A model generated the notes under the pieces. That model did not search any database. It saw only the letters and a program-made list of their open reading frames with translations, and was not told the DNA's origin. A DNA stretch of 13,969 nt from Oscillospiraceae bacterium (GTDB lineage: Bacteria; Bacillota_A; Clostridia; Oscillospirales; Ruminococcaceae), in NCBI GenBank assembly GCA_018109965.1, contig JAGBFE010000266.1, forward strand, positions 1-13,969, written 5' to 3'. Both the position numbers and the translations under genes were made by a program. The first letter of the stretch is position 1, and every line of letters begins with the position of its first letter. Below, one piece after another: positions 926 to 10,486 of this stretch.

Positions 926-3004
926 TTATGTTCCACTGCTTGAGCTGTCTGAACTGCTGTTTGTACTGTCTGAACTGCTACTTGAATTATCAGTGCTGTT
1001 ACCGTTGCCTGTAGAAGGTCTGTTTACACATGTTACACCATCTGCATTTGCACTGTGTCCTCTTGTACCGCATACACTGCAAACAGGCACTGTTGGGCAG
1101 TTTGCAGATGTATGTCCTTCATCGTTACAGATTGAACAAGGCATTGCTTTATTACAGTTATCACATACCTGACCTTCAGTTAAGTTTGTATGATCACAGT
1201 TTGGACAAACACCATTTTCATCCTCATGTCCTTCTTTGCCGCAAACATCACATTTTTTAGGATGTTCTACGTGATCTTTGGAACCACAAACAGGACAGGT
1301 TGGATGCACTGTATGGTCAGTGGAACCACAGTCAGGACATTTTGGAGGGCCAGAGCTGATAACCAGTGTAACGCCACCACCTGCCTGAAGTTCAGAGCCA
1401 GCCTCAGGTGACTGTGCAATAACCACACCAACAGGTTCATAACTTTCTGCCTGAGTATAGTTTTCAACACGAAGTCCTGCTGCAGTTATAGCTCTTCTTG
1501 CTGTTGCAAGGTCAGCACTGCCAACAACATTAGGTACTTCACGGGTATTCTTTTCCTGGTCAATTGCGATATAAATTGTTACTGTGCTGCCGCTTGTAAC
1601 AAGTTCGCCTGCCTCAGGACTGGTTTTTACAACATTTCCGTCAACTACATCCTTTGTTTCTATGGTATCAATCGCAATGTTTACACCCATTTCTTCAAGG
1701 ATTTTTTGTGCTTCTGCCCTTGTGAAGTTTTTAAGTTCAGGCATTTCGCTTGTCATAACACCTTTGCTGACTTTAAGAGTTACTGTGCTGTTTTCTTTTA
1801 CAGTTCGTGGTGCTTTTGGTGTCTGAGCAAAAATTATATCTTTTTCATACTCATCGTTATATTGATATTCATATTCAAAATTAAGATTATAGCCGCTTTG
1901 TTTTACCTGACTTTCAGTCATACCAACAAAGCTTGGAAGTTCAATTTCCGGCTGATTTGAGAGCAAGGAGTTACCGCTCATTTTGAATATAAAAGTAATT
2001 GCAACCACAGCACTTATCATAAATGCTGCTGCAAGGCCTGCCATTACAGGCAAAAGCAATCTCTTGCCTTTTTTCACCTTTATCTTGCTTGTTTTCTTTT
2101 TCGCCATTGTATTCACCATTACTGTTTTTGTCTGTTCTTCGGCAACAGCTGCTTTACCATAGTCAAAAACAATTGCAGGGTTTTCTTTAAGTTTTTTCAA
2201 ATCCGCACGCATTTCGGCAGCGGACTGATATCTGTTTTCAGGTTCTTTTGCAATTGCTTTCATAATTATCTGTTCCATTCCTTTAGGAACACCATCAGCA
2301 TAAGTACTTATCGGTGGTGCTTCTTCAGAAAGCTGCTGCAGTGCAACTGAAACTGCGGTTTCTGACTGGAAAGGAAGTTTGCCTGTAAGCATCTCGTACA
2401 TCATAATACCGATGCTGTAAATATCGGAACGGTTGTTGGTACTTTGACCGCGTACCTGTTCAGGGCTGATATAGTGTACAGAACCGATTGCTTTGTCTGT
2501 TACTGTTCTCTGGTTTGCTGTAGAAAGTCTTGCAATACCAAAGTCCATTATTTTAAGGTCACCTTCACGGGTGAGCATAATATTCTGCGGTTTAAGGTCT
2601 CGGTGAATAACACCGTTTTCATGAGCATGTCCAAGCGCACCAAGAATTATGTTTGCAAAAACCAAAGTTTCTTCCCATGTAAGTTTGCCGCGGTTTTCGA
2701 TAAATTCTTTAAGTGTTAAACCTTTTATATATTCTACTACTAAGTATTTTTCGCTGTCTGTTATATTAAAATCGAGAACCTTGATGATACATTCGTGGTT
2801 GAGCAGGCTGATTGCCTTGCTTTCGTTTTTAAAACGTCTTACCAGTTCTTCATTTTCAAAAAATTCTTCTTTCAGGAATTTTACAGCAACTTCCTGACCT
2901 GACTGTTTATCAACAGCTTTATATACATTTGACATACCGCCAACCCCGATAAGAGAGATAATTTCATAGCGATTGTCAATAATCTTTCCTATATAATTTT
3001 CCAT
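926..3004 (-). CDS. prkC: PASTA-domain Ser/Thr protein kinase with a Cys-rich, zinc-knuckle-like extracellular tail
   Basis: Membrane Ser/Thr kinase of the PrkC/Stk1/PknB family, which senses cell-wall fragments outside and phosphorylates cytoplasmic targets. 692 aa. Kinase domain about 12-275: glycine loop near 20-27, ATP-binding K42, catalytic HRDLKPQN (134-141), DFG (154-156), activation-loop T162, T167 and T169, SPE 180-182. A basic juxtamembrane stretch (302-315) precedes one membrane helix (316-340). Three PASTA domains follow (about 354-415, 420-482, 488-552). Unusually, residues 556-659 carry 16 Cys in repeated C-x2-C-x4-H-x(4-8)-C units, then a Ser/Asn/Asp-rich tail (663-692); family members normally end at or soon after the last PASTA. 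A strong AGGAGG at 3009-3014 abuts the prpC stop and sets the start. The function of the kinase core is secure; the tail's role is unknown. Confidence 0.96.
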   Translation of the reverse strand: MENYIGKIIDNRYEIISLIGVGGMSNVYKAVDKQSGQEVAVKFLKEEFFENEELVRRFKNESKAISLLNHECIIKVLDFNITDSEKYLVVEYIKGLTLKEFIENRGKLTWEETLVFANIILGALGHAHENGVIHRDLKPQNIMLTREGDLKIMDFGIARLSTANQRTVTDKAIGSVHYISPEQVRGQSTNNRSDIYSIGIMMYEMLTGKLPFQSETAVSVALQQLSEEAPPISTYADGVPKGMEQIIMKAIAKEPENRYQSAAEMRADLKKLKENPAIVFDYGKAAVAEEQTKTVMVNTMAKKKTSKIKVKKGKRLLLPVMAGLAAAFMISAVVAITFIFKMSGNSLLSNQPEIELPSFVGMTESQVKQSGYNLNFEYEYQYNDEYEKDIIFAQTPKAPRTVKENSTVTLKVSKGVMTSEMPELKNFTRAEAQKILEEMGVNIAIDTIETKDVVDGNVVKTSPEAGELVTSGSTVTIYIAIDQEKNTREVPNVVGSADLATARRAITAAGLRVENYTQAESYEPVGVVIAQSPEAGSELQAGGGVTLVISSGPPKCPDCGSTDHTVHPTCPVCGSKDHVEHPKKCDVCGKEGHEDENGVCPNCDHTNLTEGQVCDNCNKAMPCSICNDEGHTSANCPTVPVCSVCGTRGHSANADGVTCVNRPSTGNGNSTDNSSSSSDSTNSSSDSSSSGT
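945..979 (-). repeat. 21-base-period direct repeat in the Ser-rich tail of prkC
   Basis: The 14-base word ctgtctgaactgct (plus-strand reading) occurs at 945-958 and again at 966-979. The 21-base period equals seven codons and encodes part of the Ser/Asp low-complexity tail. Such a repeat could expand or contract by slippage without shifting the frame. Confidence 0.7.
1028..1339 (-). other. Cys/His-rich repeat region encoded at the 3' end of prkC
   Basis: Codes for residues 556-659 of the kinase. Cysteines are at 556, 559, 570, 573, 585, 588, 600, 603, 614, 617, 623, 626, 636, 642, 645 and 659. Units: C556-x2-C-x4-H564-x5-C570; C570-x2-C-x4-H578-x6-C585; C585-x2-C-x4-H593-x6-C600; C623-x2-C-x4-H631-x4-C636, exactly classical CCHC zinc-knuckle spacing; and C642-x2-C-x4-H650-x8-C659. 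The pair C614/C617 has no matching His. The first two units also resemble each other in DNA: a 10-bp word (tggaaccaca) at 1279 and 1321 gives a 42-base period, suggesting local duplication. Predicted outside the cell because it follows the single membrane helix and the PASTA domains. Metal binding is inferred from spacing only. Confidence 0.8.
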
Positions 3005-3014
3005 TATGCCTCCT

Positions 3015-3737
3015 CTATACTGCTATAACAACTGCGGTTATATTGTCTGTTGCCTGATTTTTAAGTGCCGACTGTATCAGTCTGTCAGGCATTGCAAAAA
3101 TATTTGGCTGAGTTAATATTTCCACTATTTCGTGCGGGGACACAAAATTTGTAAGTCCGTCTGTTGCGCACATAAGTATATCTCCCGGGTATACCTCAAG
3201 TTCCGCCACATCTACCTGAACGGTTTCTTCCACGCCAACTGCGCGTGTTATAAGATTTTTTTGCGGATGATTGGTCGCTTCTTCTTCACTTATCTTGCCT
3301 TGAATCAAAAGCTCCTGCACAACCGAATGGTCACTTGTAATAAGTGCCAGTTTTGAGTCCCTCACTATATAAACACGTGAGTCTCCTGCATGATAGACTG
3401 TGCATTTGCTGCCATTTATGGTTACGCCTGCAACAGTTGTTCCCATTCCCTTATATTCGCTGTTCTTTTCGCCAAGATTGTATATTGCCCTGCAGGCGTC
3501 TTCGATTGCAGCAAGAACAGTTTTTTCTTCATTGAAAGATGTGCTTTCGTTGTGGACATACAGTGAATCTTCAATGTATTTTGCCAGCAGGTCACTGGCG
3601 ATTTTCCCGCCTTTGACACCGCCCATTCCGTCACACACAAAACCAAAGCTGACGTTGTTAAGCAGTCTGCCCGCTATATATTTGTCCTGATTTTCACTTC
3701 TTCGGTTGCCAATATTGGTAGCCCCTGAAATTTTCAT
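3015..3737 (-). CDS. prpC: PP2C-family Ser/Thr protein phosphatase (PrpC/Stp)
   Basis: Cytoplasmic metal-dependent phosphatase that reverses phosphorylation by the adjacent PASTA kinase. 240 aa, close to the 245-255 usual for bacterial stand-alone PP2C enzymes. Visible motifs: SENQD (14-18), CDGMGG (35-40) with metal-binding D36 and G37, GMGTT (97-101), HAGDSR (116-121), SDHS (135-138), TRAVG (164-168), ATDGL (191-195) with D193, and DNIT (231-234) with metal-binding D231. All the key acidic residues are present. The start at 3737 has AGGTGA just upstream, four bases beyond the rlmN stop. Its stop lies 10 bases before the kinase start, so the two are translated from one message as a kinase/phosphatase pair. 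Confidence 0.96.
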   Translation of the reverse strand: MKISGATNIGNRRSENQDKYIAGRLLNNVSFGFVCDGMGGVKGGKIASDLLAKYIEDSLYVHNESTSFNEEKTVLAAIEDACRAIYNLGEKNSEYKGMGTTVAGVTINGSKCTVYHAGDSRVYIVRDSKLALITSDHSVVQELLIQGKISEEEATNHPQKNLITRAVGVEETVQVDVAELEVYPGDILMCATDGLTNFVSPHEIVEILTQPNIFAMPDRLIQSALKNQATDNITAVVIAV

Positions 3738-7731: not shown

Positions 7732-8242
7732 CCAGATTGAGTTCTTTGATTTCTTCAGGTGTCAGATCTTCGTAGAATTTTGTTGCGTGATCCATAATTG
7801 TGATACCGTCAAGATGGTCTGTTTCATGACAGATTGCTCTTGCAAGGATATCTTCCGCTTCAATGATAAATTCATTGCCGTAACGGTCCTGTGCCTTTGC
7901 TTTTACATACTGAGGACGTGTGATTGCACCGTTTCTGTTTGGGAAAGAGAGACAGCCTTCAAAAAGGGTAACTTCGCCTTCTCTTTCGAGAATTTCCGGG
8001 TTTACAAGTTCGATGATTTCATCAACTTCGTTGTCATCTTCATCAAGATACTGGTCAAGCACAACACACACACGGCGCATTACACCAACCTGAGGACCTG
8101 CAAGACCAAGACCGTGAGCTTCCATCATTGTGTCGCCCATATCTTCAAGCAATGTTGCAAGTTTTTCGTTGAATTCTGTTACAGGACGGCAAACTTTTTT
8201 AAGGATTGGGTCACCGTCTTTTACAATAGTTCTGATAGCCAT
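7715..8242 (-). CDS. def: Peptide deformylase
   Basis: Metalloenzyme that removes the N-formyl group from nascent proteins at the ribosome. 175 aa. All three motifs are present: motif 1 GLGLAGPQ (44-51), motif 2 EGCLS (95-99) with metal ligand C97, and motif 3 HETDH (139-143) with ligands H139 and H143 and catalytic E140. Motif 1 has Gly where many enzymes have the second Ala (GLAAPQ), a tolerated variation. The C-terminal tail is strongly acidic. AGGAGA precedes the ATG at 8242, and priA ends 24 bases upstream. Its end overlaps the start of fmt, so translation of the two is probably coupled. Confidence 0.97.
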   Translation of the reverse strand: MAIRTIVKDGDPILKKVCRPVTEFNEKLATLLEDMGDTMMEAHGLGLAGPQVGVMRRVCVVLDQYLDEDDNEVDEIIELVNPEILEREGEVTLFEGCLSFPNRNGAITRPQYVKAKAQDRYGNEFIIEAEDILARAICHETDHLDGITIMDHATKFYEDLTPEEIKELNLDEDYD

Positions 8243-8266
8243 AATATTTCTCCTGAATAATATAAT

Positions 8267-10486
8267 TTAATCGTTTGTCGGGTTCATATTTACATATATA
8301 CCCGATTTGTTGTCCGTATCTTTAAGATATTCATCAATTGCACACCTTAAAAAATCACGGAATTTTTTTGTATTTTTACATTTTATAGTCAAACGGTAAC
8401 GGTAAATACCGCTTACCATTGAAACCGAAAATGGTGCAGGGCCAAGGACAACCAGAGGCATGCCCTCAAGTTTTTCGGCCTGCTGTTTTATTATTTTAAG
8501 AAACCTTGCAGCATCCCTTGCCGCACTGATTTCCTTTTCGTTTGTGAACGCCACCTGACACATTGTGCAGAACGGCGGATAAATGTTGAGTTTTCGGAAC
8601 GCAATTTCGTTCTGATAGAATTTCTCGTAGTCACCCCTGCGCGCAAGATTGATAACGGGATTTGTGCTGTCATAGGTCTGTATAACCGCCAGGGCATCCT
8701 TTGTCCATCTGCCTGCACGACCGATAACCTGTGTAAGCAGATTGAACGCTGTTTCGTTGGAATTATATGAAACCTGATTGAGTGCACCGTCCATACCAAG
8801 CACACAAACAAGGTTAACATCCTTAAAATCAAGCCCTTTGGCCACCATCTGCGTGCCGACAAGGATATCATACTTTTTATCTGCAAAAGCTTTTAACATT
8901 TCACTGTGGGCATCGGTTTTGCCTGTAGTGTCGGCATCCATACGCAGCACTCTTGCCTTTGGTATGCAGGAGAGAATATATTCCTCCACCTTTTGCGTAC
9001 CGTAACCGACATACTGAATTTCGCCTCCGCAGTGCGGACATTTTTCAATCACAGGGTAGCTTGCAGAACAGTAGTGACAGCTGAGCTTGTTTGCATTTTT
9101 GTGCTTTACAAGATTTACACTGCAGCTGTTGCACTGCAAAGTTTCCCTGCATTCCTTACATACCCCCACTGTGGAATATCCGCGGCGGTTTATAAGGATA
9201 ATGCTTTGTTTTTCCTGACGTATGTTATCGGATAAATATTTTATTACCGAATCGGACAAAACACCTGTATCACCGATTTTTGCCTGCATACGCATATCGA
9301 TAATTTCAACGCGCGGCATAGGCATATCGTTGTAGCGTTTATCCATTATATGCAGATGATAAAACCCATTTTTTGCAAGATGGTAACTTTCGATACTTGG
9401 TGTTGCCGAAGCAAACACCAGCTTTGCATTTTTTTCCTTTGCTATAAAGGTTGCCACACGGATTGCCGAATAACGCGGGCTGTTTTCTGACTTAAAGGTT
9501 TTTTCGTGCTCTTCATCAATAATAATGATGCCTATATTTTCCACAGGTGCAAACACTGCACTGCGGGTGCCGATGATAACCTTTGATTTTCCCTGCTGTA
9601 TAAGTCTGTGCTGATGCAGTCTTTCAGTATGGGAAAGCTTTGAGTGCAGCACACTGACAATGTCTCCAAAATAACCTGTGAGCAGATTTATCATCTGGGG
9701 TGTCAGTGAAATTTCCGGCACAAGCAGCATTGCGCTTTTGCCTTTGTCCAGTGTATGCTGTATAAGTTTTATAAAAACCGATGTTTTCCCGCTGGAGGTT
9801 ACTCCGTGGATAAGGTGCGGTTTTGAGTTATCCTGTAACGTAATTTCTTCAAAAACTTTTTTCTGCTGCTGTGACAGAACGATATCCTTTTTCGCCACAT
9901 CATAGCTTTTGGAAGTGTATTCCTTTTCGCAGTCTGTGGCGACAACAAGATTTTTTTGTGCCAGTTTGTCAACTACTGCTTTGGTTACATTACAATCATC
10001 GCATATTTGTTTGATTGTTTTGTGTGAATTCAAAAGATAGTTATATACAGCCTTCTGTTTTGCTGTAAGCTTTTCGGCTGTTGTATCACCGCACGCAGTA
10101 TATCTTTTTTCTGTAGGCAATCGGTGTTTTGCTTCCAGTTTGCCCACAGCAATTTTATACTGACCGCTGTATGGGATAACTGCCTTTGCGGCTTCGTAAT
10201 ATGTGCAGAAGGTGGTTTCCCTGATATAGTCCACCATTTTGCGGGCAAAAGGTGTAACAAGCCAGTCTTCTGTTTTTACATCAACAATTGTTTTGAGTTT
10301 TTTTACATCATCCTTGTCATTGAGGCTGAGCACAACACCCATGCGCAGCGCACTGCTGTGGCCAAAAGGTACAAGCACAATGGACCCAACCTGTATTTCA
10401 TTTTTAAAAACGTCAGGAACAATATAAGAAAACTCTTTGTCAAAGTTCAAGGTAGCTTTGTCCACTGCTACGCCTGCTGTCAACAT
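8267..10486 (-). CDS. priA: Primosomal replication-restart helicase PriA
   Basis: 3'-to-5' superfamily 2 DNA helicase that reloads the replisome at stalled forks. 739 aa, near the E. coli length of 732. An N-terminal 3'-DNA-binding domain (about 1-110) is followed by a winged-helix linker, the Walker A GVTSSGKT (228-235) and Walker B DEEH (324-327). The zinc-binding insertion has eight cysteines in four pairs: 443/446, 452/455, 470/473 and 483/486. Then come GTQMVAKG (544-551, motif V) and QVIGRAGR (586-593, motif VI). Nothing is degraded. A GGGAGGG sequence precedes the ATG. In many Firmicutes rpoZ and coaBC lie between gmk and priA; here only 20 bases separate those two. Confidence 0.97.
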   Translation of the reverse strand: MLTAGVAVDKATLNFDKEFSYIVPDVFKNEIQVGSIVLVPFGHSSALRMGVVLSLNDKDDVKKLKTIVDVKTEDWLVTPFARKMVDYIRETTFCTYYEAAKAVIPYSGQYKIAVGKLEAKHRLPTEKRYTACGDTTAEKLTAKQKAVYNYLLNSHKTIKQICDDCNVTKAVVDKLAQKNLVVATDCEKEYTSKSYDVAKKDIVLSQQQKKVFEEITLQDNSKPHLIHGVTSSGKTSVFIKLIQHTLDKGKSAMLLVPEISLTPQMINLLTGYFGDIVSVLHSKLSHTERLHQHRLIQQGKSKVIIGTRSAVFAPVENIGIIIIDEEHEKTFKSENSPRYSAIRVATFIAKEKNAKLVFASATPSIESYHLAKNGFYHLHIMDKRYNDMPMPRVEIIDMRMQAKIGDTGVLSDSVIKYLSDNIRQEKQSIILINRRGYSTVGVCKECRETLQCNSCSVNLVKHKNANKLSCHYCSASYPVIEKCPHCGGEIQYVGYGTQKVEEYILSCIPKARVLRMDADTTGKTDAHSEMLKAFADKKYDILVGTQMVAKGLDFKDVNLVCVLGMDGALNQVSYNSNETAFNLLTQVIGRAGRWTKDALAVIQTYDSTNPVINLARRGDYEKFYQNEIAFRKLNIYPPFCTMCQVAFTNEKEISAARDAARFLKIIKQQAEKLEGMPLVVLGPAPFSVSMVSGIYRYRLTIKCKNTKKFRDFLRCAIDEYLKDTDNKSGIYVNMNPTND

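Follow-up and report, generated by a model that had tools for sequence, protein, structure and literature searches.

A PrkC-type kinase with a Cys/His-rich tail

The window considered here, a stretch of 13,969 nucleotides from an Oscillospiraceae bacterium (contig JAGBFE010000266.1), encodes on its minus strand a PASTA Ser/Thr kinase of the PrkC type, which continues beyond its last PASTA domain with a tail rich in cysteine and histidine. The protein has a kinase domain, a transmembrane segment and PASTA repeats, and scores 514.9 bits with the NCBIfam model PknB_PASTA_kin (NF033483), for which the curated cut-off is 450. Its kinase domain finds Stk1 of S. aureus as top match in Foldseek, followed by PknB of M. 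tuberculosis. The structure model contains a single membrane helix (residues 317–343) and PASTA-like secondary structure up to about residue 550, and the close orthologues P0001, P0003 and P0004 show a hydropathy peak at residues 315–334. Since the kinase domain is N-terminal of the membrane helix, the PASTA domains and the tail should be located outside the cell, so that the extracellular position proposed in the first-pass annotation is borne out by the architecture. The gene sits between a frame (3015–3737) that we take, from its sequence and the gene order, to be a PP2C-type phosphatase (the PrpC partner), and a frame (3–872) that we call RsgA-like; the order phosphatase, kinase, RsgA is presumably the usual place of PrkC. 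Because of these flanking frames, the kinase of the window is taken to be the housekeeping PrkC (Table 1).

Of its 17 cysteines, 16 lie within residues 556–659 (104 of the 692 residues), together with eight histidines; this segment corresponds exactly to positions 1028–1339. The only cysteine outside the tail, C72, belongs to the kinase domain. The tail cysteines are residues 556, 559, 570, 573, 585, 588, 600, 603, 614, 617, 623, 626, 636, 642, 645 and 659, and the histidines are residues 564, 567, 578, 581, 593, 605, 631 and 650. From their spacing, these 24 potential ligands can be read as six sets of four, arranged in tandem. We grouped here all tandem units with a C-x2-C-x4-H core plus a fourth ligand that follow a transmembrane or signal segment, and the tail of the window kinase belongs to this group.

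The first-pass annotation had described a 104-residue tail after three PASTA domains, with 16 cysteines and one exact zinc knuckle at residues 623–636, and the translation of the open reading frame agrees with this in full. The placement that it called regular is so in that the units follow each other in tandem, but several distinct spacings occur among the six. Likewise, an array is present and knuckle-like chemistry is the best reading of it, although most units are CCHH variants or have other ligand orders, and do not conform to CX2CX4HX4C.

Table 1. Features of the kinase locus in the window (residue numbers refer to the kinase)
Feature	Position	Strand	Basis
PrkC/Stk1-type PASTA Ser/Thr kinase, 692 aa	926..3004	minus	uninterrupted open reading frame; NF033483, 514.9 bits
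Cytoplasmic protein kinase domain, residues 13–260	2225..2968	minus	PF00069, E 1.6e-56; Foldseek
Transmembrane helix, residues 317–343	1976..2056	minus	structure model; orthologue hydropathy
Three PASTA domains, about residues 353–552, no Cys	1349..1948	minus	PF03793, 3 stretches, E 2.2e-35
Unit 1, C-x2-C-x4-H-x2-H, residues 556–567	1304..1339	minus	sequence pattern
Unit 2, C-x2-C-x4-H-x2-H, residues 570–581	1262..1297	minus	sequence pattern
Unit 3, C-x2-C-x4-H-x6-C, residues 585–600	1205..1252	minus	4/4 ligand residues kept in L001
Unit 4, C-x-H-x8-C-x2-C, residues 603–617	1154..1198	minus	spacing recurs in other proteins
Unit 5, exact CCHC zinc knuckle C-x2-C-x4-H-x4-C, residues 623–636	1097..1138	minus	pattern; PDB matches
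Unit 6, knuckle-like C-x2-C-x4-H-x8-C, residues 642–659	1028..1081	minus	sequence pattern
Ser/Asn/Asp-rich end, predicted disordered, residues 660–692	929..1027	minus	pLDDT (predicted local distance difference test) 31–38 from residue 661
PP2C-type phosphatase-like frame, adjacent upstream gene	3015..3737	minus	open reading frame

Ligands in multiples of four

Cysteines and histidines were counted from the first unit to the C-terminus in 71 proteins, i.e. 56 unit-bearing database proteins, the window kinase and the kinases of genome loci L001–L014; these rows include near-copies, such as P0011/L002 and P0043/L003. The sum of Cys and His is a multiple of four in 60 of the 71 tails, with remainders of 1, 2 and 3 in 9, 1 and 1 tails, respectively. 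Control sets counted in the same tails gave, for remainders 0/1/2/3, 22/14/26/9 (Cys alone), 22/9/24/16 (His alone) and 24/16/18/13 (Asp plus Glu). As tails consisting only of the commonest unit (two Cys and two His) trivially give fours, this unit was removed from the 34 PASTA-kinase tails. This left P0049 empty, while 30 of the other 33 still had remainder 0 and three (L014, P0009 and P0015) had remainder 1. The unit-type patterns used for the removal were composed after viewing the sequences, whereas the plain Cys and His counts are independent of them.

Different routes lead to four ligands: CCHH units with the last His at +3 or +5, CCHC units, C-x2-H-x3-H-x4-C, H-x-H-x8-C-x2-C or C-x-H-x8-C-x2-C, and longer C-x2-C...H...C forms. 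In 293 of the 299 distinct C-x2-C-x4-H cores, position +3 or +5 is occupied by another His or Cys (H+3 203, H+5 72, C+5 17, C+3 1), with Cys and His interchanging at the same ligand site. A second swap concerns unit 4, which reads C-x-H-x8-C-x2-C in the window kinase, L001, P0001–P0004, P0006, P0007 and L082, and has His as its first ligand (H-x-H-x8-C-x2-C) in L008 and P0044; in the exported protein L082 this spacing stands alone, twice. The number of cysteines is odd in 23 of the 71 tails, 18 of which still have a Cys plus His sum divisible by four. The four-fold sums, the odd cysteine numbers and the Cys/His swaps fit tetrahedral metal sites better than disulfides. The number of units itself varies from 3 to about 8 across the PASTA-kinase relatives. 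Judging from these counts, selection appears to keep complete four-ligand sets rather than a fixed surface.

Conservation and turnover of the tail

The closest genome locus with DNA, L001 in G001, could be compared codon by codon with the window kinase over residues 553–617, where the units were not chosen by motif. The 16 Cys/His codons comprise 10 identical, 6 synonymous and no non-synonymous ones, as against 18 identical, 14 synonymous and 17 non-synonymous among the other 49 codons. Past residue 617 the composition of the two tails diverges, and three aligned Cys/His positions differ. In a 31-row alignment, columns 553–600 have a mean conservation of 0.94 for the 12 Cys/His and 0.54 for the other 36 positions, compared to 0.69 in the PASTA region. 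H578 is invariant, and H564, H567 and H593 are conserved in at least 90% of the rows, similar to the surrounding cysteines. A further comparison of unit codons in seven sequences of the genus shows unchanged ligands by construction, since its units were chosen by motif, and no evidence of selection was drawn from it.

The tail also changes rapidly. P0004 is the sister of the window kinase in the tree (support 100/97), with an identity of 99.7% over residues 1–340, 99.1% over 341–552, 97.7% over 553–595, but only 46% over 596–660. The near-identity up to residue 552 suggests that the outer tail has been rebuilt recently, with the fours retained. A near-identical orthologue lacking the Cys/His spacing had been named beforehand as an argument against the array; P0004 goes some way towards this in its outer tail, but its Cys plus His sum is again a multiple of four (32, compared to 24 in the window kinase), which makes the comparison favourable overall.

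Profile and structure comparisons

With the Pfam family zf-CCHC (PF00098) the window kinase reaches 14.9 bits, below the cut-off of 20.8, which is exceeded in the orthologues P0004 (21.1) and L014 (22.7). Double zinc ribbon profiles also remain below their cut-offs (DZR_2, 16.3 against 27; DZR, 16.2 against 27.3); among the related proteins, P0005 is above the cut-off for both PF18912 (DZR_2) and PF12773 (DZR), and P0020 for PF18912. Sequence matches in the PDB include Nop10 (2.3e-4), the knuckles of Air2 (6.5e-4, residues 582–652) and nucleocapsid p7 (0.007), all of which we take to be zinc proteins; this is soft support, as Cys-rich queries easily score against Cys-rich targets.

The full-length AlphaFold2 model has pLDDT values, by blocks, of 64–79 for residues 551–650, 47 for 651–660 and 31–38 from 661 onwards. 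A model of the tail alone has a mean pLDDT of 73 and a predicted template modelling score of 0.37, suggesting beads rather than one domain. A fold search with the tail model gave no significant structural match; the hits below significance (E 0.5 and worse) include many zinc proteins, and are not counted as evidence.

Distribution of the tail

Thirty-six kinase loci were collected from genome contigs. In L001–L015, which are records of metagenome-assembled genomes (MAGs) or uncultured bins from Oscillospiraceae or Clostridia, the Cys/His tail follows the last PASTA domain. No such Cys/His core is present in L016–L023, L025–L034 and L036, while L024 and L035 have no readable kinase end and are outside this tally. 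The 15 tail loci represent one uncultured genus of Oscillospiraceae, in which 15 of the 16 genomes yielded the kinase (E <= 1e-150), each time with the tail; the sixteenth genome may be an incomplete assembly. In L015 the kinase gene (7965–9925) is split into open frames of 419 and 263 residues, which may reflect either a faulty assembly or a genuine interruption. No cultured host was seen among the tail carriers; apart from L001–L015, this covers the few database proteins for which a name is given, all of these names beginning with MAG. The first-pass annotation had considered a sequencing artefact unlikely, and an artefact or frameshift was indeed rejected, given the open frame and the related tails at 15 orthologous loci in different genomes; these tails, together with the synonymous-only change of the 16 ligand codons compared with L001, make chance unlikely as well.

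A profile of four CCHH units (A1), which misses other unit types, matched 5 of 197 genomes of the family at E <= 1e-3, three of them members of the genus (G001, G005, G007) and two with weak matches of about 1e-4 (G097, G110). At E <= 1e-6 it matched 4 of 391 genomes of the class, namely G001 and three with units on kinases without evident PASTA domains. The CCHH unit, the commonest of the units, is thus rare beyond the genus and was rejected as a common feature of the family or class, the two counts having different E limits. Within the genus, the kinase is the sole A1 match in 10 of the 15 genomes; G008, G011, G012 and G015 have more than one match, and G014 has none though its kinase bears the tail. 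A phage origin was addressed by a tblastn search with a five-unit stretch against 50,697 phage records, without a match.

Related units on other exported proteins

Similar units could be identified in exported proteins of other kinds. The non-kinase protein P0005, an exported protein of the SLH type, was used as a query and scored on 7993 candidates that shared most words with it and had 0.55–1.75 times its length. Of the 58 proteins found, 54 have units, and 40 of these are transmembrane kinases, with either PASTA or other outer domains, both groups having the same kind of end. The other 14 lack a kinase domain, and include SGNH hydrolases, a TIR protein, leucine-rich repeat proteins, a CAP protein, lipoproteins and others. 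P0055, P0056, P0058 and P0060 have neither a membrane segment nor such a unit. All 56 unit-bearing database proteins have, by a plain hydropathy rule, a hydrophobic segment N-terminal of the units, and the units are usually found near the C-terminus.

Non-kinase carriers also occur within the genus. By reading places touched by the whole-kinase query and two non-kinase A1 places of G015, quartet-like units were found in L082 of G001, L083 of G011, and L085 and L086 of G015. L082 is a frame that has a membrane segment around residue 70 and ends in a stretch with 16 Cys and 8 His. The idea that the units of a genome are confined to its kinase was dropped for this reason.

Including these four, quartet-like units were noted in the genus proteins L043, L052, L054, L055, L082, L083, L085 and L086. 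Among them are SGNH/Big_2-like proteins, a lipoprotein with C-x4-H-x5-C-x2-C repeats, and one protein with apparent cell-wall-binding and BMP-like parts; L083 has a signal-like start and CCHC units. L084 (G012:C108) is a very long frame, of which the 1500 residues in the stretch read contain 93 Cys in repeats of the type C...GLTEG.HC..C...GH, each of which has one or two His besides its three Cys; it is possibly another Cys/His quartet repeat, on a surface protein. Among the database proteins, P0029 is a TIR-domain protein with one membrane segment followed by six CCHH units, an unusual arrangement for TIR. P0027, a kinase, has eleven CCHH units C-terminal of its membrane segment and, N-terminal of it, Cys pairs that are likely a cytoplasmic ribbon, so that zinc modules may be present both inside and outside the cell.

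Proposed role of the tail

We propose, as the probable though by no means certain reading of these sequence patterns, that the tail consists of some six short units strung together outside the cell, which bind metal, most likely Zn(II), and act as a structural tip of PrkC. The sequence anatomy, the occurrence throughout the genus, the counts in fours and the Cys/His swaps are observed, and the exported position follows from the architecture; the identity and occupancy of the metal, the structural role and any effect on kinase activity are inferred. Located behind the last PASTA domain of the housekeeping kinase, the Cys2His2 and Cys3His sites would hold Zn(II), and each segment of about 12–18 residues, otherwise without structure, would thereby become a compact bead. 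With such a metal-stapled tip the receptor could reach deeper into the wall, or past it, and would offer fast-evolving loops for contact with a wall polymer or partner; changing loops between fixed ligands would suit contact with a polymer or partner that itself varies. The frequent occurrence of the units on kinases leans to signalling, while their variable copy number and their presence on hydrolases and lipoproteins lean to structure.

The signalling side is taken furthest by a metal or thiol sensor, in which occupancy by Zn(II), or its loss on oxidation, is the signal and alters receptor clustering, and hence kinase activity. The outermost position of the units on a receptor kinase would suit this, as would the predominance of transmembrane kinases among the unit-bearing matches to P0005, itself not a kinase, and the presence of units on kinases in the three matched genomes of the class (E <= 1e-6) that do not belong to the genus. 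A range of 3 to about 8 units is odd for a tuned sensor, however, hydrolases, lipoproteins and other exported proteins carry units as well, and Cys2His2 and Cys3His sites usually bind zinc too tightly to report ordinary changes. We regard the sensor as rather unlikely, and slightly more so since other carriers were found in the genomes of the genus. Equally doubtful, and slightly lowered for the same reason, is its wider form, according to which exported mini zinc fingers of an undescribed class, whose ligand orders are interchangeable and kept solely as full sets of four, have repeatedly been attached to the outer ends of transmembrane kinases of gut Clostridia, PrkC included, making them respond to the extracellular zinc or thiol state.

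The same carriers slightly raised our estimate of a shared surface tag or metal-bridged adhesion, in which units on neighbouring receptors or on different proteins share metal sites, in analogy to the zinc-dependent holding together of G5 domains. Related units on many exported proteins, also in the genus (L082, L083, L085 and L086), would be expected of such a tag, but the ligands occur in complete fours within each chain, so that no open half-sites are evident, and the kinase is the sole A1 match in most genomes of the genus, though A1 misses other unit types. On balance we consider a shared tag improbable.

Exported cysteines often form disulfides, and the many CxxC pairs could belong to a disulfide-stapled tail, in which cysteines are paired in an oxidising exterior and the histidines are incidental. 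Disulfides would have no need for His, would leave an odd Cys unpaired and would not lead to a Cys-for-His swap; full disulfide pairing is therefore disfavoured by the tail histidines conserved like the surrounding cysteines, by the odd cysteine numbers and by the swaps at one site. Profiles for VKOR, Thioredoxin_4 and DSBA each matched none of the 15 genus genomes, and 3, 9 and 8 of 14 controls, respectively, a result that covers these three oxidase families only and may be affected by incomplete MAGs. Further, for nine of the 15 tail loci the record title points to the gut of goat, sheep, roe deer or water buffalo, and the ruminant gut is largely anoxic. A disulfide-stapled tail thus seems very improbable to us.

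Finally, an expansion of low-complexity repeats that does little and persists for want of any harm would agree with the rapid turnover between P0004 and the window kinase and with one recent set of unit duplications in L013 (DNA identity 0.90–0.95), but is scarcely credible, as the remaining 19 pairs, of 22 unit pairs compared, go back further (DNA identity 0.54–0.79), the ligand codons show only synonymous changes relative to L001 (residues 553–617), and the tail is kept in all 15 kinases found in the genus.

Relation to known systems

In Gram-positive bacteria, wall growth, division and tolerance of beta-lactams are under the control of PASTA kinases, whose extracellular signal is still a matter of debate. 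The window kinase shares with PrkC, StkP and PknB (NF033483) the kinase domain, the transmembrane segment, three PASTA domains, and the PP2C-like and RsgA-like neighbours, but adds the Cys/His array after the last PASTA domain.

The resemblance to the CCHC zinc knuckle (PF00098; Air2, retroviral nucleocapsid) lies in the identical C-x2-C-x4-H-x4-C of residues 623–636, but knuckles are nuclear or cytoplasmic whereas the tail is exported, and most of its units have His at +3 or +5 instead of Cys at +5; a role with nucleic acids would not be expected outside the cell. Double zinc ribbons (PF18912 DZR_2, PF12773 DZR) have the same tandem CxxC knuckles. Zinc ribbons are typically Cys4, whereas the units of the tail are mostly CCHH, and located outside the cell.

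An extra domain at the distal end of a PrkC-type kinase is not new. Two reports describe a C-terminal Ig-like domain in PrkC of B. subtilis (PMC5786024; PMC3601408), at the distal end of the PASTA stalk, for which binding of peptidoglycan is suggested (PMC3601408). The array of the window kinase occupies the same distal position with a different chemistry. The statement in the first-pass annotation that PrkC-type kinases usually end with the last PASTA domain or a short tail thus holds only in part, as loci L016–L023 also bear other C-terminal stretches. Zinc ribbons have been placed on the cytoplasmic side in YARHG proteins (PMC3355149). Text searches of the literature found no Cys/His tail in PASTA kinases and no exported zinc-knuckle arrays, which is weak evidence as subscription papers were largely beyond reach, and a Pfam scan met the exported units only as scattered zinc-ribbon or knuckle matches. 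The kinase itself is of a known kind and an extra C-terminal domain of PrkC is known, while a Cys/His metal-finger tip was not found described.

If a conserved metal-finger tip is indeed present on a housekeeping PASTA kinase throughout a genus, metal (or redox state) would be added as an input or a structural requirement, and zinc-knuckle chemistry could work outside an anaerobic cell. The occurrence of such units on further kinases, as well as on TIR, SGNH, SLH and lipoprotein chains, suggests an exported module that can be reused.

A PASTA-only protein next to the kinase gene

Directly after the kinase gene, five loci encode a membrane-anchored protein with PASTA domains only (L002 from 10059, L003 from 10051, L004 from 10099, L005 from 10039 and L013 from 9723), of 220–252 residues counted from the first Met, without a kinase domain or a Cys/His tail. 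It was not seen in L001, L006, L008, L010 and L014, and the window has no room for it between the kinase and the RsgA-like frame. This protein is probably a duplicated ectodomain, which could possibly serve as a decoy or partner receptor.

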